Below, piece by piece: positions 3,297 to 45,065 of a stretch of 64,000 nucleotides of DNA (its first letter is position 1; every line of letters begins with the position of its first letter). Position numbers and translations under genes: made by a program. This stretch comes from Ulvibacter litoralis (GTDB lineage Bacteria; Bacteroidota; Bacteroidia; Flavobacteriales; Flavobacteriaceae): contig NZ_FNBA01000003.1 in the NCBI RefSeq assembly GCF_900102055.1, positions 186,001-250,000 of the forward strand, written 5' to 3'. The notes below the pieces were generated by a model. It saw only the letters and a program-made list of their open reading frames with translations, ran no database searches and was not told the origin of the DNA.

Positions 3297-4379
3297 TTAA
3301 CCTAGAATTCGTTTCACAAGTTTGTCTTTGGCAGCCTGATCATCACCGCACAACCATTGTATTACGTTGTCGTCCCAAATAGCATCGCATTCGGTTTCCG
3401 TTAAAATTTTTCGCTCTTTGGCCAAGTCTAAAATCTTTCCAGGATACGACGATTGCATTTCACTTTCCATTTCCCCTAACGGATACGGATCGTCCAGTCC
3501 CATTACCACTTGTTTAGAGCCTTGATTTTCCACTACTAATTTTAAAGATCCCGTATCGTGTACCAAGGTGTCGAAAAAGATGTTTTTATGTCCAACTGCC
3601 TTTCTAGGGTGTGTTTTTCCTTCAAATAAATCGGGGCGACCATCAAACCCTTGAATACGTCTTCCTAAATTCATTTGCGCCAATTGTCCACCGTGTGCAA
3701 AACAAGTTCGCATGTTTGGGTATTTATCGGCGTAGCCATTCAGTGTTAAAAAATGATAGGCATCTGCACATTGCGCTAGCATCCAAATAAGGTGAAAACG
3801 CCATGCAGTATTCTGTAATTTTATAAATTTTTCACCATCGTATGGATGTATTTCTACCGCCAAATTGTATTTACTCGCCAATTCAAAAATAGGCTCGTTT
3901 TCTTCATCAAAAATACAACGCCAGGTTCCAATCGTGTCCATGTAATGCGTTGGCAAACACAATAATTGCATCCCTAATTCTTCCACGCAACGTTCCATTT
4001 CCCACAAAGCACCTCGAACAAAACCAGGATGTACTACAAACCCACAGGTAAATTTAGACGGATGCTCTCGTTGCACTTTTGCATTAAAATCGTTCTGAAA
4101 ACGCAGCGCTTGCTTCATTTCTTCCACGCGCAGACCATTTCCATAAAGCTGCGATAAATTAAGCACTACCGCATGATCAATTTTGTAGCGCTCCATCCAC
4201 GCCAATTTTTCATCCAAAAAGAAACTCGAATCCGTCACCGGTCGGCTCCAATCTTTTTGAAGCATAAACTTTCGATCCTTATCTACCCAAAAAATACCTT
4301 TGTCTTTCATAAATTGAGGAATCTCCTCTGGATACGGAAGCAAATGTGAATGTCCATTAATGCGTAGTTTTCGTCTCAT
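3297..4379 (-). CDS. 2-amino-3-carboxymuconate-6-semialdehyde decarboxylase (ACMSD)
   Basis: ACMSD is an amidohydrolase-fold, metal-dependent decarboxylase that converts 2-amino-3-carboxymuconate semialdehyde to 2-aminomuconate semialdehyde. It pulls the kynurenine pathway away from quinolinate/NAD synthesis and toward full breakdown. The 360 residues begin with the metal-binding HxH (H10, H12). Further conserved sites are the His in EIHPYDGEKF, the His in CFAHGGQLAQM and the terminal Asp in MGLDDPYPLGE. It lies in the kynurenine cluster, separated by about 180 bases from the SDR gene upstream; that gap holds a palindromic element. The length fits the family. Confidence 0.93.
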   Translation of the reverse strand: MRRKLRINGHSHLLPYPEEIPQFMKDKGIFWVDKDRKFMLQKDWSRPVTDSSFFLDEKLAWMERYKIDHAVVLNLSQLYGNGLRVEEMKQALRFQNDFNAKVQREHPSKFTCGFVVHPGFVRGALWEMERCVEELGMQLLCLPTHYMDTIGTWRCIFDEENEPIFELASKYNLAVEIHPYDGEKFIKLQNTAWRFHLIWMLAQCADAYHFLTLNGYADKYPNMRTCFAHGGQLAQMNLGRRIQGFDGRPDLFEGKTHPRKAVGHKNIFFDTLVHDTGSLKLVVENQGSKQVVMGLDDPYPLGEMESEMQSSYPGKILDLAKERKILTETECDAIWDDNVIQWLCGDDQAAKDKLVKRILG

Positions 4380-4425
4380 AGTTTTAATTTAAACTCGGTT
4401 CTTTTACTGTGTTTTAATATTTTTT

Positions 4426-4526
4426 GGGCGTTCCCCATTGTGAAAAACAATCGGGCGGGCTTTCCGTTGTATCTTTTTGTAGTACTGCTGGCACTACAAA
4501 AAGGATGTCACTGCAATCCCTAACGC
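4426..4526. repeat. Palindromic intergenic element, possibly a dispersed flavobacterial repeat
   Basis: This ~100-base element fills the gap between the ACMSD and SDR genes. It starts with GGGCGTTCCCC and ends with AATCCCTAACGC, so its ends (GCGTT at 4428-4432, AACGC at 4522-4526) are inverted. The core is a hairpin with 11-base perfect arms (4473-4483 and 4493-4503) and a 9-base loop. I recall similar elements with GGGC..CGGGCTTTCC..hairpin..CAATCCCTAACGC in other Flavobacteriaceae, but could not check this. No ORF lies in it. It may also act as a partial terminator or mRNA stabiliser inside the operon. Confidence 0.6.
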
Positions 4527-4559
4527 ATTCTCATCTAGCTAAAGTTACAACAATAACGC

Positions 4560-5345
4560 TTATAATGATTTTGTACGTCCACCATCTACCGGAAGATTAA
4601 TTCCGTTAATGTAACTAGCCGATTCGCTGGCTAAAAAAGCAACGGCGTATGCAATCTCTTCAGGTTCTGCAAAGCGTTTGGCAGGAGCGACACTCTTCAT
4701 CATTTTTTCAGCATCTTCAAACGAACCATTTATCTTTTTAGCAACATTGTGTAAAATATCTGTAAGGCGCTCGGTAGCGGTTGCTCCAGGCAATACGTTG
4801 TTTACAGTAATTCCAAACGGACCTACTTCCGTAGCCAATGTTTTACTCCAATTTGCCACGGCACCACGAATGGTATTGCTTACGCCCAACCCTTCAATAG
4901 GTTGCTTTACCGACGTAGAGATAATATTAATAATACGACCAAAGCCTGCTTCTTTCATTCCAGGAATGACAGCCTGTGCCAATATGTGATTGCATTTTAA
5001 ATGCTGTGTAAAAGCGGCTTCAAACTCATCCAAGCCAGCCGTTAATACAGGACCTGCTTTCGGACCTCCAGTATTATTTATTAAAATATGAAAGGTTTTG
5101 TCTTGAGTCGCTTTGGCAAGTTGTTCTTGTAACACCTTCGGATTGCTAAAGTCTACAACCAAATAGTCGTGTTGCTGCCCTTCCGAAGTTGGCAATTCCG
5201 TTAGTACTGCTTTAAGTTTTTCTTCATTTCTAGCGACCAATGTGATTGTGGCTCCCATAGAAGCTAATTCTAGTGCTGACGCTTTTCCAATTCCTGCGCT
5301 ACTTCCGCAGACCAATGCATTTCTATTTTGTAAATCTAACTTCAT
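4560..5345 (-). CDS. SDR-family protein lacking the canonical YxxxK, in the kynurenine cluster
   Basis: This 261-residue protein has a Rossmann fold of the short-chain dehydrogenase/reductase family. The cofactor motif CGSSAGIG lies at residues ~13-20 and the NNTGGPKAG motif follows. The active-site region reads SNTIRGAVANWSK, so the positions of the catalytic Tyr and Lys (YxxxK) hold Ser and Arg. It may use another mechanism, be a binding protein, or belong to a variant SDR group. I chose the ATG at 5343-5345; the longer frame to 5393 would translate the inverted repeat. Its job is not known; reduction or hydration of an aminomuconate-derived intermediate would fit the context. Confidence 0.85.
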   Translation of the reverse strand: MKLDLQNRNALVCGSSAGIGKASALELASMGATITLVARNEEKLKAVLTELPTSEGQQHDYLVVDFSNPKVLQEQLAKATQDKTFHILINNTGGPKAGPVLTAGLDEFEAAFTQHLKCNHILAQAVIPGMKEAGFGRIINIISTSVKQPIEGLGVSNTIRGAVANWSKTLATEVGPFGITVNNVLPGATATERLTDILHNVAKKINGSFEDAEKMMKSVAPAKRFAEPEEIAYAVAFLASESASYINGINLPVDGGRTKSL

Positions 5346-5350
5346 GTTTA

Positions 5351-5418
5351 TGTCAGGTCGAGCGCAGTCGAGACCTATATTTAATATTAACAACCCCTCG
5401 ACTGCGCTCGGGGAGACA
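5351..5418. repeat. Inverted repeat filling the SDR/dehydrogenase gap
   Basis: Two 22-base arms (5351-5372 and 5397-5418) are inverted copies matching at 18 of 22 positions, including a perfect 14-base core CGAGCGCAGTCGAG. The 24-base AT-rich spacer separates them. The arms account for nearly all of the 75-base intergenic space. The core is itself a near palindrome. Motifs like this (TCGACTGCGCTCG followed by GACA) are, as I recall, dispersed in flavobacterial genomes. A weaker relative may lie after clpS near 57462-57484. It could form a hairpin in the operon mRNA. Confidence 0.7.
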
Positions 5419-5420
5419 TT

Positions 5421-6866
5421 TTAAGTATACTTTATACACACGTTTTTCGGTTCTGTAAAAAAACGCAAGGCATCAAATCCGCCTTCACGTCCTACACCGC
5501 TATCTTTCATCCCACCAAAGGGCGTTCGTAAGTCACGATTTAGCCATGTGTTTACCCATACGATACCTGCTTCTAATTGTTTGCTTAAACGCATGGTACG
5601 GTCTAAGTGCGTCGTCCAAAGCGTTGCCGAAAGGCCATACTTTACACTGTTTGCCATTCGCAAAGCTTCTTCCTCTGTTTCAAAAGGCATGATGGTAACC
5701 ACAGGTCCGAAAATTTCTTCCTGATTTACACGACATTGATCGTCGTAAACCTCAATGATCGTAGGTTCTAAGTAATAACCATTTTCCAATCCTTTTACGG
5801 TTACAGGATTCCCTCCGTATAAAATTGTTCCACCTTCTTCTTGTGCAATTTTAATATACGATTGTACTTTTTCGAGGTGTGGTTTAGAAACCAATGCTCC
5901 TAAATTCGTGTCCGCATCAAAAGGATCTCCCACTTTTAAAGCGGCAATCTTCGCGATGAAATCTTTTTTGAATTTCTCGTAGATTGGTTTTTCAACAAAA
6001 ATTCGGCTTCCGCAGAGACAAATCTGCCCTTGATTGGCAAATGACGATTTTACAGTTACGTTTAGCATGGTCTCATAATCACAATCTGCAAAAATGAGAT
6101 TTGGGTTTTTCCCGCCCAATTCTAACGATAATTTTTTAAACATGGGTGCTGCCGTTCTAGCAATGTGCTCGCCTGTTTTAGTACCCCCTGTAAATGAAAT
6201 CGCCTTAATGTTTGGATGCTCTACAATCGCTTGCCCTGCTGAAGGACCCGTTCCGTGAACAATATTTAAAACACCTTTAGGCAATCCTGCTTCCGTACAA
6301 ATTTCACCTAATAAAAAAGCGGTCAAAGGAGTTACTTCACTCGGTTTTGCAACAACGGTATTTCCTGCGGCGATGGCAGGTGCTATTTTCCATGTAAAAA
6401 GATACAAGGGTAAATTCCAAGGAGAAATACAACCCACGACACCAAGAGGTTGGCGTAAGGTAAAATTCATGGTTTGCAACCCAATACTTTCGTGTGCTTC
6501 GCTTGAAAATTGTGTGATAGCGTTTCCGAAGAATCGAAAATTACTAGAGGCACGCGGAATATCTACGGTTAACGCTAAATTTAATGGCTTTCCATTATCC
6601 TTTGCTTCCGCTTTGGCTAAATCGACCATCTTTTCTTCAATGAGATCGGCAATTTTCAATAAAATCCGACTTCGTTCCTCAATGGTGGTGTTTGACCAAA
6701 TTGGGAAAGCTTCTTTCGCCGCTTCATAGGCGTTTGCAATATCTGTCGCATCCGAATTGGCAATTTGCGAATAAACTTCTCCATTACTCGGATTGTAATT
6801 GTCAAGCCATTTTCCGGAGTGAGGTTCGCAGTACGCGCCGTTTATGTAATTTAAGATTTTCTGCAT
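5421..6866 (-). CDS. 2-aminomuconic 6-semialdehyde dehydrogenase (aldehyde dehydrogenase family)
   Basis: An NAD-dependent aldehyde dehydrogenase that oxidises 2-aminomuconate semialdehyde to 2-aminomuconate, the step after ACMSD in the kynurenine meta pathway. The 481 residues include the cofactor motif SFTGGTKTG (~224-232), the general base Glu in LELGGKNPN (E249) and the nucleophile Cys in GQICLCGSR (C283). The dehydrogenase family is broad, so the substrate is inferred from close resemblance to AMSDH and HMSDH enzymes and from the neighbours. The stop codon lies just after the inverted repeat, and the RidA-type gene ends 1 base before its start. Confidence 0.9.
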   Translation of the reverse strand: MQKILNYINGAYCEPHSGKWLDNYNPSNGEVYSQIANSDATDIANAYEAAKEAFPIWSNTTIEERSRILLKIADLIEEKMVDLAKAEAKDNGKPLNLALTVDIPRASSNFRFFGNAITQFSSEAHESIGLQTMNFTLRQPLGVVGCISPWNLPLYLFTWKIAPAIAAGNTVVAKPSEVTPLTAFLLGEICTEAGLPKGVLNIVHGTGPSAGQAIVEHPNIKAISFTGGTKTGEHIARTAAPMFKKLSLELGGKNPNLIFADCDYETMLNVTVKSSFANQGQICLCGSRIFVEKPIYEKFKKDFIAKIAALKVGDPFDADTNLGALVSKPHLEKVQSYIKIAQEEGGTILYGGNPVTVKGLENGYYLEPTIIEVYDDQCRVNQEEIFGPVVTIMPFETEEEALRMANSVKYGLSATLWTTHLDRTMRLSKQLEAGIVWVNTWLNRDLRTPFGGMKDSGVGREGGFDALRFFTEPKNVCIKYT

Positions 6867-38593: not shown

Positions 38594-39212
38594 TAAAGTT
38601 TTTGTCAAAGAAATTCCTATCATTCTCTCAACAGAGAAAAAAATTGGTAGTAAATATACCTCTATCCCATTGAAGGAGGTAAAATTTAAAAAATTGATAG
38701 AGAAAATTAACAACGGCGAGCTGCTGTATGTTAACATCTATCATAAGAACGAAGAGAAGTTAGAACAATTTCTTCGGAAGAAACTTCCTGTGGTTGAAGC
38801 AGGCGGCGGAATGGTATACAACAACAAAAAAGAAATTCTTTTTATCCGTAGAAACTCAAAATGGGACCTTCCGAAAGGAAAGGTTGAAGAAGGGGAAAGC
38901 TATGAAGATGCCGCAGTTCGTGAAACGATGGAGGAAACAGGTGTTAAAAATCTGGAAGTCCGCCGTTTTATAAAAAAAACCTATCATATTTTTCAACGAA
39001 ACGAAAAGTTTAAACTGAAAATCACGTATTGGTACGAAATGTACAGCGATTACGATGGTGTTTTAATTCCAGAAGAAAAGGAAGGTATCAAAAAGGTAAA
39101 GTGGAAGAATTTCGAAAAATCCCAAAAAGCACTTCAAGACTCCTACGAGAACATAAAACTTCTTTTTCCGAAAGAATATTTACTCACGCACCCGAACGAT
39201 CGGATATCGTAA
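38589..39212 (+). CDS. NUDIX hydrolase
   Basis: The 207-residue protein has an N-terminal ~75-residue extension and a NUDIX domain with the motif GKVEEGESYEDAAVRETMEE (GX5EX7REUXEEXGU, near residues 97-120). NUDIX enzymes cleave nucleoside diphosphates linked to another group. I chose the ATG at 38589-38591, giving the MYKVFVKEIPIIL start I recall in relatives; the ORF starting at 38553 overlaps pyrE. Its start lies 7 bases from the pyrE start. The end overlaps the M14 peptidase by 33 bases. Confidence 0.93.
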   Translation: MYKVFVKEIPIILSTEKKIGSKYTSIPLKEVKFKKLIEKINNGELLYVNIYHKNEEKLEQFLRKKLPVVEAGGGMVYNNKKEILFIRRNSKWDLPKGKVEEGESYEDAAVRETMEETGVKNLEVRRFIKKTYHIFQRNEKFKLKITYWYEMYSDYDGVLIPEEKEGIKKVKWKNFEKSQKALQDSYENIKLLFPKEYLLTHPNDRIS

Positions 39213-40925
39213 ATGCGCTTTTTCGTAATTAGGCGATTGTTTGTGGATCCAATCTAGTTGTGCATACCAATTTCCTGCAAAATTAGGGTCTGTCGCCTTT
39301 TTAGTTTCAAACTGCGCTTTAATTTCTGGGTTATTTGTCAAAAATATGTCGGCTTGGTCTTCCCAAACATACGGAGAGAAGCCTTCTTTTTGCTGTAAAA
39401 TTGGATCGAAAAAGTTCCAGTTAAAAAAGGAATCTACGGCTGAAGGTTCTAAGGTTTCTAGAATATATCGAATTCCTTCCTGTTGGGTATCCACAATGTA
39501 ATCACCCTTTCGAACCGCTGTTTTTTCTGAAAGTGTCGTTGTTGTGGTTTTGTAATGCAAGTAATGACCTTCGTAAGGACTATTTCTAGTTTCATAACTT
39601 TTTATAGCATAGACTTCAGTTTCTATAATAGTGTCTTTTTTTAATTTGGTGAACTCTATGTCATTCAGCTTTAAAAGGTCGATTACGTTCCAATATCCCT
39701 GCGGAATTATATATGCTTTTGGGATTGTAATGCTGTCTGAAGCTTTAAAATAGTTGTAGTATGTAAGCTCTTTGGTAAAAGGTTTGTTTCGATCGTATTT
39801 TAGTCTGTTAGTACCTGTAATGGTGCTCGGTATTTGTTCGCCTTCGTATCCTTTAAATTTTAGCGTGCTCGTTTTAGAACTGTCAACTTTCCAAGCAATA
39901 GGGTAGTAGTTGTTTGTTTTGTAGTTTAAAGGAGCGTTTTTCCGAAGTTCAGTAACCAATTCAGCATCTTTATCGGCAATATTGATGAAGCTTTTCATGA
40001 GTTCGTAGGTTCCTTCTACGCGTTGTTTGTAGGGTTTCAGCATGTGCGTTTCCACCATCATTCCAACCGTGTTAAATAATGTAGTGTATCCTGTAGAATA
40101 ACGAGGCGAGTCCATGAACTGAGAAAAACCACCTTCAGGTGTTCTGTTAAATACATTTACATAGGGTGTGATGTCCCATTTTTTAAGTTGTAATGAGTCT
40201 TCAAGTTGTGGCATTAAGGACGTGTGAACGTAATTTCCTAATGGTCCGCCAAGTTTGTTGTGCTGTGTAAATAAATGGGTTAATGCATATTGATAATCAG
40301 CACCATTACTTACGTGATTATCAATAAAAAAAGCGGGTTTTATACTTCTGAAAAGTTCTTTAAAAGCACGCGCATTTTTAGTGTCGGCTTTAATAAAATC
40401 TCTGTTAAGGTCGTAATTACGGGCGTTTCCGCGAAAACCGTATTCTTTCGGGCCATTTTGATTGGTACGCGTGGTGCTATTTCTATTTAAGGCGCCACCA
40501 ATATTATATACTGGAATGACTGCGATAATTGTGTTTTCGGGAGCGCTTAGTTTTCCTGTAGCAAAATCTCTTAACAGCATCATGGAGGCATCAATCCCGT
40601 CACTTTCGCCAGGGTGGATTCCGTTATTGATTAGAAAGATATTTTTTTTATTTTCTTCGGAAAATTCCGATTCAAAACTGCGATTTGGGTTAAACGTAAC
40701 TAAATGAAGCGGTTCTCCACTATCTGTTTTGTCCATCGTGTAGATTGAAATAGACGTATATGCTTCAGAAAGATGCGTGTAATATTCAATAACTTCAGCA
40801 TACGTTGCCGTTTCTGTTCCTTCTGAAATTTCAAAAGAGGTTGTGAAGTTAAATGTAGTTTCTTTTTTTTCCGAAGAACAAGAAAAAAGAATCAGGATTG
40901 AAAGTGAAAAGAATACGTTTTTCAT
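39180..40925 (-). CDS. M14 family zinc carboxypeptidase-like lipoprotein
   Basis: The 581-residue protein starts with a lipoprotein signal (KNVFFSLSILILFSC) and so is probably in the envelope. The M14 carboxypeptidase domain covers residues ~40-330, with the zinc motif HPGESDG (HxxE) near 100 and the second zinc His in FIDNHVSNGADYQ. The C-terminal ~250 residues are a beta-rich accessory part. It likely trims peptides or muropeptides. Its 3' end overlaps the NUDIX gene by 33 bases on the other strand. Confidence 0.88.
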   Translation of the reverse strand: MKNVFFSLSILILFSCSSEKKETTFNFTTSFEISEGTETATYAEVIEYYTHLSEAYTSISIYTMDKTDSGEPLHLVTFNPNRSFESEFSEENKKNIFLINNGIHPGESDGIDASMMLLRDFATGKLSAPENTIIAVIPVYNIGGALNRNSTTRTNQNGPKEYGFRGNARNYDLNRDFIKADTKNARAFKELFRSIKPAFFIDNHVSNGADYQYALTHLFTQHNKLGGPLGNYVHTSLMPQLEDSLQLKKWDITPYVNVFNRTPEGGFSQFMDSPRYSTGYTTLFNTVGMMVETHMLKPYKQRVEGTYELMKSFINIADKDAELVTELRKNAPLNYKTNNYYPIAWKVDSSKTSTLKFKGYEGEQIPSTITGTNRLKYDRNKPFTKELTYYNYFKASDSITIPKAYIIPQGYWNVIDLLKLNDIEFTKLKKDTIIETEVYAIKSYETRNSPYEGHYLHYKTTTTTLSEKTAVRKGDYIVDTQQEGIRYILETLEPSAVDSFFNWNFFDPILQQKEGFSPYVWEDQADIFLTNNPEIKAQFETKKATDPNFAGNWYAQLDWIHKQSPNYEKAHLRYPIVRVRE

Positions 40926-41177: not shown

Positions 41178-42017
41178 ATGAAAAAAATTACTTTATTAGT
41201 AGCTGCATTAGCAGTTACTGCGTTTGTGAATGCACAAACTACAATGTCACATTCAACAGATCAAACTGATATTACAGGAAGTGTAGCATGTGCTGATAAC
41301 ACATCTGGAATTTCAACAGATAATAGTTTTTGGAGATCTTATACTCCTGCAGATTTTGGAGTGACTGATGAAATGGCTGTTACTCAAGTAGAATTTGCAG
41401 TAGGTTCTTCAGATTTTGCTGTTGCACCTTATGCAGTAACAGTGAATCTTTATTCTTCTGATGCTACTTTTCCAGCTGGAAACTTTACATTATTAGCTAC
41501 ACAACAGGTTCCTGTTTTAGAATCTGATGCTGGTACTATTTTAACTGCAACGTTAGATACTCCTTTTAACATTGATTCAACTTCTGAAGTTATTGTTGAG
41601 GTAGCTGATGTTGATGAAACAGTTAACTTCCGTATTGGTCAAAACACTTTAGGTGAAACTGCTCCTTCTTATTTAACATCTGTAGGTTGTGCTATTACTG
41701 AGCCAACTACTACTGAAACAATCGGATTCCCTGATGATTTCATTATTAATGTAGTACTTGATACTGCTCTTGGTTTAGATAACAACAGCCTTGCTGGAGT
41801 TTCTATCTACCCAAACCCTGCTTCTGATGTATTAAACGTATCTGTTCCTTCAACTGTTGAAGTAACAAGTGCTGTTTTATATGATGTATTAGGAAAAGAC
41901 ACTGGTGTAAGTTTAGTAAACGGAGCTATGAATACTGCAAACCTTGCAAGAGGAGTTTATATTTTAAGTATCAACACTACTGCTGGTTCACTTACTGAAA
42001 AAGTTGTAAAAAACTAA
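41178..42017 (+). CDS. Secreted protein with T9SS sorting domain (paralogue 1)
   Basis: The 279-residue protein has a signal peptide (KKITLLVAALAVTAFVNA), a beta-rich domain (~20-205) with many Thr, Ser and Asp, and a T9SS type A C-terminal domain (~208-279: YPNPASDVLNV, YDVLGKDTG, ARGVYILSINT, LTEKVVKN). It is probably exported and attached to the surface. The middle domain is not recognised; it has pairs of Cys that may form disulfides. A TATATTCG -7-like box lies at 41147-41154. The last 77 bases match the next gene at 76 positions. Confidence 0.85.
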   Translation: MKKITLLVAALAVTAFVNAQTTMSHSTDQTDITGSVACADNTSGISTDNSFWRSYTPADFGVTDEMAVTQVEFAVGSSDFAVAPYAVTVNLYSSDATFPAGNFTLLATQQVPVLESDAGTILTATLDTPFNIDSTSEVIVEVADVDETVNFRIGQNTLGETAPSYLTSVGCAITEPTTTETIGFPDDFIINVVLDTALGLDNNSLAGVSIYPNPASDVLNVSVPSTVEVTSAVLYDVLGKDTGVSLVNGAMNTANLARGVYILSINTTAGSLTEKVVKN

Positions 42018-42047
42018 GTAGTATTTAAAACTAATATTACTAGAAAA

Positions 42048-42074
42048 GCCTCACGAAAGTGGGGCTTTTTTTTT
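42048..42074 (+). terminator. Intrinsic terminator of T9SS paralogue 1
   Basis: Seven-base arms GCCTCAC/GTGGGGC with one G:T pair and a GAAA tetraloop are followed by nine T residues. It is nearly the same sequence as the terminator after paralogue 2. Confidence 0.92.
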
Positions 42075-42221
42075 GTGTATTAACTACTGTGAATTGGTTG
42101 GAAAAAGAATTGTAATTTTTAGAATAAAATGGATTTTTTTATTTTTTTTGGTACGACATGATAATTAGTTACTTGTGGTTTATTATCTTTATTTGATATT
42201 AATCTTTAAATAACTAACATA

Positions 42222-43163
42222 ATGAAAAAAATTACGGTAATCTTTTTATTCGCATTTGGTACTACATTTGCGCAACAAGCAGAAAGTTTTAGTGAGGTTC
42301 TTAGTAATTCTTCTACAACAGTTCAAACGACTTCTAATCAGGAAGCTGTTGTTATTAGCGGCGGTGATGGAGCTGAAAGTATAATTGATACCTATACAAC
42401 TCTTAATGGATTTAGTGATGCAGTAGGAGATAATTGTTCAGATACGACATTAACATCAGAAGATTTTGCAGGAGGTCCTAGTGGAATCACAGAATGTGGA
42501 ATTGTAATAAGTAATGCAGGTGATGGATGTTATGCTGCTGGAGAATTAGAACTTGGCTTTGATGTGATGGCTTCTAATAGTACGAATGTAATTAGTATTC
42601 CTGGAGGAGCTATTGGTAATGTTGATCCGCTTGTGGGAGCTAATACTTTTACAGAATATACTATTATTAATTTTGCACCAGATGTATATGCTGTTGGAAT
42701 GGATCTTTGGGAAAACAGTGATCCATCGGTTGATATCAGAGTGTTTGGAACTGGAGGTGCTTTAATAGATGTTTTAACTATAGCTGTACCAGTTGGAGTA
42801 CAAACATTTTTTGGTGTAATTGCTGATGAGCCAATCACAAAAATGGAAATAGAAGGTATTAATGGAAGTGGAGAGCTTTTTGGAAACTTCTTATTTGGTG
42901 CGGACTGTGGAGTAGCGGGTGTGAATGATACTTTGTTATCTCAAGTGTCAGTGTATCCTAACCCAGCTTCAGATGTATTAAACGTAAGAGTTCCTGCTAC
43001 AGTAGAGGTGAAAAATGCTGTTTTATACGATGTATTAGGAAAAGATACGGGTGCTAGATTAGTAAATGGTTCTTTAGATATAGCTGACCTTGCAAGAGGA
43101 GTTTATATTTTAAATATCAACACTACTGCTGGTTCACTTACTGAAAAAGTTGTAAAAAACTAA
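42222..43163 (+). CDS. Secreted protein with T9SS sorting domain (paralogue 2)
   Basis: The 313-residue protein has a signal peptide (KKITVIFLFAFGTTFA), a Gly/Ser/Thr-rich beta domain (~20-238) and a C-terminal T9SS domain (~242-313) closely like that of paralogue 1. Its middle domain shares little with paralogue 1, so the two are fusions of different bodies with one tail. The middle domain contains paired Cys (DNCSDTT, TECGIVIS, GDGCYAAG), probably disulfides. A possible -7 element TTTATTTG is at 42188-42195. Function unknown. Confidence 0.85.
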   Translation: MKKITVIFLFAFGTTFAQQAESFSEVLSNSSTTVQTTSNQEAVVISGGDGAESIIDTYTTLNGFSDAVGDNCSDTTLTSEDFAGGPSGITECGIVISNAGDGCYAAGELELGFDVMASNSTNVISIPGGAIGNVDPLVGANTFTEYTIINFAPDVYAVGMDLWENSDPSVDIRVFGTGGALIDVLTIAVPVGVQTFFGVIADEPITKMEIEGINGSGELFGNFLFGADCGVAGVNDTLLSQVSVYPNPASDVLNVRVPATVEVKNAVLYDVLGKDTGARLVNGSLDIADLARGVYILNINTTAGSLTEKVVKN

Positions 43164-43216
43164 ATAGTATTTAATACTATTAGTAGTAAAAGCCTCACGA
43201 AAGTGAGGCTTTTTTT
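43087..43216 (+). repeat. Duplicated 3' module: T9SS tail end plus terminator (partner at 41941-42074)
   Basis: The last 77 bases of paralogue 2 (43087-43163) match 41941-42017 of paralogue 1 with one substitution, including silent positions. Similarity continues past the stop codon (TAGTATTTAA) to the GCCTCAC GAAA hairpin. Further upstream in the sorting domain the two genes differ at many silent sites. This points to a recent copy or conversion limited to the 3' end. Confidence 0.85.
43191..43216 (+). terminator. Intrinsic terminator of T9SS paralogue 2
   Basis: Perfect eight-base arms AGCCTCAC/GTGAGGCT with a GAAA tetraloop are followed by a run of T. It is the partner of the hairpin at 42048. 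Confidence 0.92.
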
Positions 43217-43277
43217 ATGCGGTATAGGCTGGTGTGTTGCTAGAAAGAACAAAGATTAGTTCTAGCTATTGTACAAA

Positions 43278-43337: not shown

Positions 43338-45065
43338 TTATCCGTTCATGGATATTAAAAACTCTTCGTTGTTTCTTGTATTCTTGATGCGGTCATTGAT
43401 AAATTCCATCGCCTCTACAGGATTCATATCGGCTAAGTATTTGCGAAGTACCCACATACGCTGAATTGTAGTTTCGTCAAGTAATAAGTCGTCTCTACGT
43501 GTGCTTGAAGAGGTAAGGTCGATAGCAGGGAAGATTCTTCTGTTAGATATTTTACGATCCAACTGAAGCTCCATATTACCAGTTCCTTTAAATTCTTCAA
43601 AAATAACTTCGTCCATTTTAGATCCAGTTTCAGTAAGAGCCGTAGCAATTATAGTTAAAGACCCACCATTTTCAATATTACGAGCCGCTCCAAAGAAACG
43701 TTTTGGTTTGTGTAATGCATTTGCATCCACACCACCACTTAATATTTTACCACTTGCAGGTTGTACGGTATTGTAAGCACGTGCTAAACGAGTAATAGAG
43801 TCTAAAAGAATAACTACATCGTGACCACATTCTACCAAACGCTTTGCTTTGTCAATTACTAAATTGGCAACGCGTACGTGTTCAGTAGCTTCTTTGTCAA
43901 ATGTTGACGCGACTACTTCACCTTGTACATTACGCTGCATGTCGGTAACCTCTTCAGGACGTTCGTCAATTAATAAAATAATTTGGTATACTTCAGGATG
44001 ATTTGCTGCAATTGCATTTGCAATATCCTTAAGCAACATCGTTTTACCTGTTTTAGGTTGCGAAACGATCATACCACGTTGTCCTTTTCCGATAGGTGCA
44101 AATAAATCTAAAATACGTGTCGAAATAGTACTTTGTCTGTCTGCTAAATTGAATTTTTCCTGAGGGAATAAAGGAGTTAAGTGCTCAAATGAAACACGAT
44201 CACGAACCACATTTGGGTTCAAACCGTTTATTTTACTCACTTTAATAAGAGGGAAGTATTTTTCACCTTCTTTAGGAGGGCGAACTTCCCCTAATACAGT
44301 ATCTCCTGTTTTTAGTCCGAACAAACGAATTTGCGATTGTGATACATAGATATCATCAGGAGACGATAAGTAATTGTAGTCACTAGAGCGTAAAAATCCA
44401 TAACCATCTTGCATGATGTCTAGAACACCTTCGCTTTCAATAATCCCATCAAACTCAAAATCCGGTTCTCTATAACGATTACGAGAATCTTTATTTCCGT
44501 TATTTCTATTGTCTTTATGGTTGTTGCTTTGCTTATTATGATCTCGGTCTCTTTGTTGTTTTTGACGTGGCTCCTTAGAAGAGTTGTTATTGTCTCTTTT
44601 GTTAGGTTGCCTTTTATTGTCTTGTTCTTTTTGAGGTGCTGCAGGTTTAGCATCTTCTGTTTTAGAAACAGTATCAGATGTCGTTGCAGTTGTTTTTTCT
44701 TCCTCTTTTTTTGGAGCTCTTGGCTTTGGTGTATTTTTTTGACGGTTGTCTGTACGTGGCTCACGTTTGCGCACTTCGCGTGGTTGTGGCTTTTTGTGAG
44801 TACTTTCGGTTGCGTCTTTAGGAGCAGTTGTTTCTTGTTTTTCTTTTGGCGTAGCTGCCTTTTCAGCTGGTTTTGCTGCAACAGGCTCTGCTTTAGCTTC
44901 TGGAACAATAGCTTTTACGGCTTTAGGATTGGTTGCCTGGTAATCTAGAATTTGATATACAAGGTCTAGTTTTTTTAGGGACTTAAATTTTGGGACATTT
45001 AAGGTTTTAGCTAATTCCTGAAGTTCGGGAAGCTTTTTTAATTTTAATTCTGAAATTTCAAACAT
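43338..45065 (-). CDS. rho: Transcription termination factor Rho with a long disordered insert
   Basis: Rho is a hexameric RNA helicase that ends transcription. The 575 residues hold an N-terminal Rho_N helix domain (~1-45), then ~160 residues (~45-205) rich in Lys, Asn, Arg, Gln, Pro and Glu with no predicted fold, the cold-shock RNA-binding domain (~208-280, [14 protein letters not shown]) and the ATPase core with Walker [11 protein letters not shown] and the Q/R loops (RRIFPAIDL). Many Rho proteins are ~420 residues, so the insert makes it long. A 190-base leader upstream may be regulatory. The gene ends in a strong hairpin. Confidence 0.96.

Follow-up and report, generated by a model that had tools for sequence, protein, structure and literature searches.

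Probable recurrent overwriting of export-tail DNA and terminators between neighbouring genes for unlike secreted proteins in Ulvibacter litoralis and related bacteria

In Ulvibacter litoralis and in related Flavobacteriaceae, adjacent genes whose secreted products have unrelated bodies very probably copy over one another's export-tail DNA time and again; this DNA encodes a T9SS C-terminal sorting domain (CTD), and the terminator behind it is copied as well. The window, which is the whole stretch of 64,000 nucleotides analysed here, carries two such genes, A and B, one behind the other, with an M14-like gene to their left and rho to their right. Recurrent homologous recombination between neighbouring copies of CTD and terminator, as gene conversion and probably also as unequal exchange, is very likely the best explanation of their resemblance. 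The features of the locus are as follows.

39180..40925, minus strand: left boundary gene, M14-like by motif only, a conserved neighbour in the loci of relatives
41178..42017, plus strand: gene A, ORF of 279 aa with an N-terminal signal-like segment, a beta-rich family A body and a T9SS type A sorting domain
41798..42045, plus strand: older repeat, copy in A, covering the CTD and the first part of the 3' UTR, 83% identical to 42944-43191
41941..42017, plus strand: recent homogenised tract, copy in A, 76/77 bases identical to B, stop codon included
42044..42075, plus strand: terminator of A, a GAAA-loop intrinsic terminator with a fold of about -18 kcal/mol
42222..43163, plus strand: gene B, ORF of 313 aa with an N-terminal signal-like segment, a family B body unrelated to A and a T9SS type A sorting domain
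42944..43191, plus strand: older repeat, copy in B, direct-repeat counterpart of 41798-42045
43087..43163, plus strand: recent homogenised tract, copy in B, counterpart of 41941-42017
43188..43219, plus strand: terminator of B, a GAAA-loop intrinsic terminator 94% identical to that of A, likewise with a fold of about -18 kcal/mol
43338..45065, minus strand: right boundary gene, convergent, by its sequence the rho transcription termination factor, an ORF and conserved neighbour in the loci of relatives

The CTD of gene A (residues 210-279) matches TIGR04183 with an E-value of 4e-12 (45.8 bits) and PF18962 with 1e-10 (42.1 bits), and that of gene B (residues 244-313) matches them with 2e-12 (46.9 bits) and 4e-11 (43.4 bits), all above the curated cut-offs of 23 bits for TIGR04183 and 27 bits for PF18962 (Pfam). 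Both proteins end in EKVVKN, and both N-termini, judged by eye, have an MKK start followed by a hydrophobic stretch; export of the two products by the T9SS is predicted. Apart from the CTD, neither A nor B has a Pfam or NCBIfam domain, other models being matched via the CTD or far below cut-off. The bodies share 21% protein identity, in agreement with the first-pass annotation, which had described the middle domains as nearly wholly unlike. The AF2 model of gene A has a mean pLDDT of 81 and an all-beta body, with partial, low-TM matches only in the PDB, and the family A profile matches the CTD chains 8glk_D and 8glj_D. The model of gene B is poor (pLDDT 62), and phmmer with gene B gave no match among PDB sequences. 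The M14-like gene has the zinc-carboxypeptidase-like motif NNGIHPGE, and no match at E<=0.1 among Pfam, NCBIfam or PDB sequences.

The ends of the two genes are almost the same at the DNA level. The last 77 coding bases match at 76 positions, as the first-pass annotation had it, and the single mismatch is AGT/AAT at -51. Comparison base by base shows that, in the final 25 codons, the two genes use the same codon at all 23 positions with a shared residue, with 0 silent changes, while the 47 codons of the CTD upstream of the tail comprise 20 identical codons, 16 silent changes and 11 residue differences; silent differences, described as many in the first-pass annotation, are present there in 16 of the 36 codons for shared residues. 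The silent contrast between tail and upstream CTD (0/23 against 16/36) gives a Fisher p of 7e-5, and a run-length permutation on the A/B codons, which is independent of the chosen breakpoint, gives p=0.001. These results also answer the two conditions that had been named as refuting a copied tail, even silent divergence along the sorting domain and strong codon bias: both were tested and neither held. Purifying selection or codon bias as the force that keeps the tail DNA alike would draw on the conserved last residues of type A CTDs and on the biased codons of an AT-rich organism. The codon usage of the window predicts 8.7 identical codons in the tail where 23/23 are observed (P=4e-11), and for the upstream CTD the same usage predicts 13.1/36 where 20/36 are observed. 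The non-coding terminator is also common to the two genes, each species has its own common sequence and the tails differ between genera, which makes this account very improbable in general; for the window tail it is ruled out by the silent sites.

The expected sharp step in identity is borne out by the silent sites, with the correction that the rise does not start from zero. The whole CTD and 3' UTR already form a repeat of 83-85% identity (self-BLAST of the window aligns 41808-42075 with 42954-43219 at 84.7%), and the recent short tract is therefore nested inside an older, longer one. The similarity passes the stop codon and reaches both GAAA-loop hairpins, as had been claimed. A search of the 3.8-Mb genome for this hairpin, with up to 2 mismatches allowed, gives exactly two copies, by which a dispersed repeat or mobile hairpin is ruled out. 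BLAST of the tail region against the whole genome likewise gives only the A and B copies as strong matches, the third match being 44 bases long with an E-value of 9e-4.

The CTDs of the same genome give a background for the A/B pair. The 435 pairs formed by 30 CTDs have a mean nucleotide identity of 48% (sd 6%), and the top three are all same-strand neighbours less than 6 kb apart: 89% on contig C42 (881/886 kb), 84% for A/B and 71% on C42 (870/876 kb). The 89% pair consists of adjoining cargo genes of about 1494 aa at C42:881352-885836 and 886028-890509 on the minus strand (L221, L222), whose similarity climbs steeply where the CTD begins and falls off directly behind the stop, the terminator not being common to them; it is a second CTD-limited case in the genome of the window. 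The 71% pair consists of large cargo genes at C42:870745-873843 and 876608-881224, also on the minus strand (L221; C42:868500-888400), in which about 1.2 kb of body is near-100% identical and the identity ends at the CTD, the opposite of the A/B pattern.

Relatives were found by searches with the bodies of A, B and C and with the rho end, and their loci were then read. In many Flavobacteriaceae, 1-3 T9SS cargo genes lie between the M14-like gene and rho. They belong to four unrelated body families, A, B, C and D, which were set by BLAST before the CTD tree was built. Seven genomes among those examined have no cargo gene in the interval, many have one, and two are found in the window, in Ulvibacter antarcticus (G001) and in G057, G246 and G117. 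G131 has three, and in its sister G333 these three are distributed over two contigs. In G197 there are two genes that belong to a different type, G015 has an A-like gene and a short CTD-bearing ORF, and many more distant genomes have rho without an adjoining M14-like gene. Array content differs between close relatives. The arrays of the A-D families are C-A, C-A, A-B, C-B, C-B and A-B-D, and each is a subsequence of C-A-B-D-rho, a pattern seen post hoc, which losses from one ancestral array would leave. B-family genes of Cochleicola gelatinilyticus (G042, L061) and of G262 (L113), for which no rho or M14-like neighbour was found, each carry a divergent CTD, which agrees with the idea that a tail is shared only where there is a neighbour to share it with.

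Neighbouring genes are alike in their tails in several of these genomes. The C and B genes of G057 encode identical CTD proteins (94% at the nucleotide level) on bodies of 21% aa identity, and their similarity runs from the CTD start to just past the terminator. The B and D genes of G131 have CTDs of 90% identity on bodies of 18% aa identity. The C/B pair of G246, with CTDs 93% identical in protein and 83% in nucleotides, is an older event, and the C/A pair of G117, with a CTD identity of 71%, apparently is homogenised in the terminator only. Downstream of 3252 and 4515 of that locus (L130), 3' UTR and terminator are almost identical and the CTDs differ by 29%. The C/A pair of Ulvibacter antarcticus (58% nt) and the A/B pair of G131 (65%) are not homogenised. 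Pairs in different genera have each been homogenised to their own sequence, which strongly supports the origin proposed in the first-pass annotation, either gene conversion or a copied 3' module. The three-gene array of G131 (L111, reverse-complement 4269-4613 and 5374-5726) also contains a 77% repeat that takes in the end of a CTD, the terminator, the intergenic region and the beginning of the gene that follows, which looks as if a gene-gene junction had been duplicated. The site table of G131 and G333 is ambiguous as to donor and recipient, and the B gene of G333 is truncated.

The assembly of G333 breaks inside the common B/D tail (L112 end, L165 start), so short-read assemblies may hide such arrays, and a repeat that is hard for short reads might have led assembly or polishing to paste one tail over the other. 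The array of the window lies inside a 542-kb contig with distinct bases flanking the tract on both sides, and the pattern recurs in independent assemblies, among them G246 on a 3.0-Mb contig, which leaves such an error next to no probability.

A DNA tree of 34 CTDs (219 columns), in which many deep forks are unresolved, places adjacent genes with unrelated bodies as CTD sisters in 5/7 adjacent pairs, counting B/D of G131. Support for the sisters is 94/73 in G000, 100/98 in G057, 96/98 in G246 and 98/88 in G117, and the B and D CTDs of G131 lie inside a 100/95 clade that also holds the G333 counterpart of D; genomes of five genera have adjacent genes of unrelated body with mutually closest CTDs. 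Body labels change 15 times on the tree, compared with 15.5 times for shuffled labels. The best tree that keeps the four B-body CTDs together is rejected (dlnL 233, AU p=4e-7), as is that for the four A-body CTDs (AU p=5e-7), while the test does not reject a tree that joins the A CTD of the window to the A CTD of Ulvibacter antarcticus (p=0.25). Taken on its own, the window pair is not decided by the whole-CTD tree, and the short 3' tract carries the case. For the locus overall, there is strong evidence that paralogues in one genome are closer than orthologues in the tract while the flanks group by orthology.

CTD distance between genomes correlates with host distance, measured on the M14-like neighbour (Spearman 0.27, Mantel p=0.009), and shows no correlation with a shared body (p=0.20). 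Across the family the CTD follows the host, not the body. Joint acquisition of an A-B pair with already matching tails from another lineage would agree with the varying array content of close relatives, and is hardly credible given this correlation, the same two neighbours throughout and the fact that it leaves the tail match in the donor unexplained.

Domain capture deserves more weight. Here the resident CTD and terminator would be duplicated and one copy fused to a body from outside, or the old body upstream of a retained tail would give way to a new one, with no conversion afterwards. Tail and terminator do act as one unit, the similarity in G057 beginning at the CTD start and stopping just past the terminator, and the similarity in G131 spans CTD, intergenic region and the start of the next gene. 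Within one genus-level clade, moreover, different bodies have a common CTD: that of a lone A gene in a Marixanthomonas MAG groups with the C and B CTDs of G057 (99/97). Capture is nevertheless unlikely to account for the pattern, as the B-body and C-body orthologues in other genera already have CTDs, and in the window the tract edge falls within the CTD, not where the CTD begins, with much silent divergence upstream of it, neither of which a single capture gives. CTDs are present in all full-length A, B, C and D genes found at the site, and in the B genes found elsewhere. The suggestion that new proteins gain their export tail by this route is accordingly not supported, since tails are seen being replaced, not first acquired.

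On the explanation by recurrent recombination, the M14-rho interval would be a place where small T9SS cargo genes turn over; every gene there has its own body and the same kind of 3' module (CTD, short 3' UTR and terminator). Because neighbouring modules stay similar and about 1 kb apart, homologous recombination, presumably of the RecA type, would repeatedly copy one module onto the other, in either direction, by gene conversion. Now and then, unequal exchange between these repeats probably also removes or adds an entire gene, which would explain gene turnover. At least two rounds would have taken place in the window, the older across the entire CTD and the recent one across the final ~77 coding bases together with the terminator. 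The outcome would be a CTD sequence that tracks host and chromosomal site under changing bodies. The observations are identity steps, silent-site identity, tree discordance and recurrence across genera, and the tract of raised identity has the sharp edges, silent sites included, that characterise gene conversion between paralogues. Conversion explains the nested tracts, the sharp edges and the inclusion of the terminator; the traces that it leaves resemble those of unequal exchange and of body replacement. A wider proposal, which we consider possible and offer tentatively, is that M14-rho is a standing cargo-exchange site, where the CTD and terminator (joined in G131 by the intergenic region and the beginning of the following gene) form a constant landing module through which homologous recombination adds, removes and re-tails unlike bodies, starting from an ancestral C-A-B-D array.

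The closest published parallel appears to be that of the KLIKK proteases of Tannerella forsythia, which are encoded by clustered genes with different protease domains and a nearly identical T9SS C-terminal domain, and for which an origin by fusion of proteases to signal and C-terminal sequences common to them all was suggested by the authors (PMC4404884). A and B are alike in mode, having clustered genes, unlike bodies and near-identical CTDs, but are not KLIKK members, as they end in EKVVKN, lack the KLIKK motif and have no protease domain that could be found. The present analysis differs in examining silent sites and the terminator, and in that several genera show the process again at one and the same syntenic site. 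The gingipains and adhesins of Porphyromonas gingivalis undergo domain rearrangement and allelic exchange (PMC5266723) and are likewise T9SS cargo diversified through homologous recombination; there adhesin modules and alleles are rearranged, whereas here homogenisation affects CTD and terminator and leaves the bodies unlike. Bacterial paralogues come to have tracts in common through gene conversion, as in release factors RF1 and RF2 (PMC4530459), which are genes homologous over their whole length, while in A and B only the 3' module is homologous. These three were the only parallels found for gene conversion in T9SS cargo in the open-access literature searched, in which no paper was found on species-wise homogenisation of CTD and terminator at a syntenic locus.

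A and B are ordinary members of the T9SS type A sorting domain family (TIGR04183, PF18962), and what is unusual is the evolution of the DNA of the domain. T9SS CTDs are often studied via the attached protein; here the history of the CTD is uncoupled from the body and follows host and site, so CTD-based trees or functional classes can mislead, and body-specific adaptation of the CTD is doubtful for these arrays. The locus is a clear natural case of an export signal and a terminator behaving as one recombining unit, an idea that is testable in culturable marine flavobacteria.
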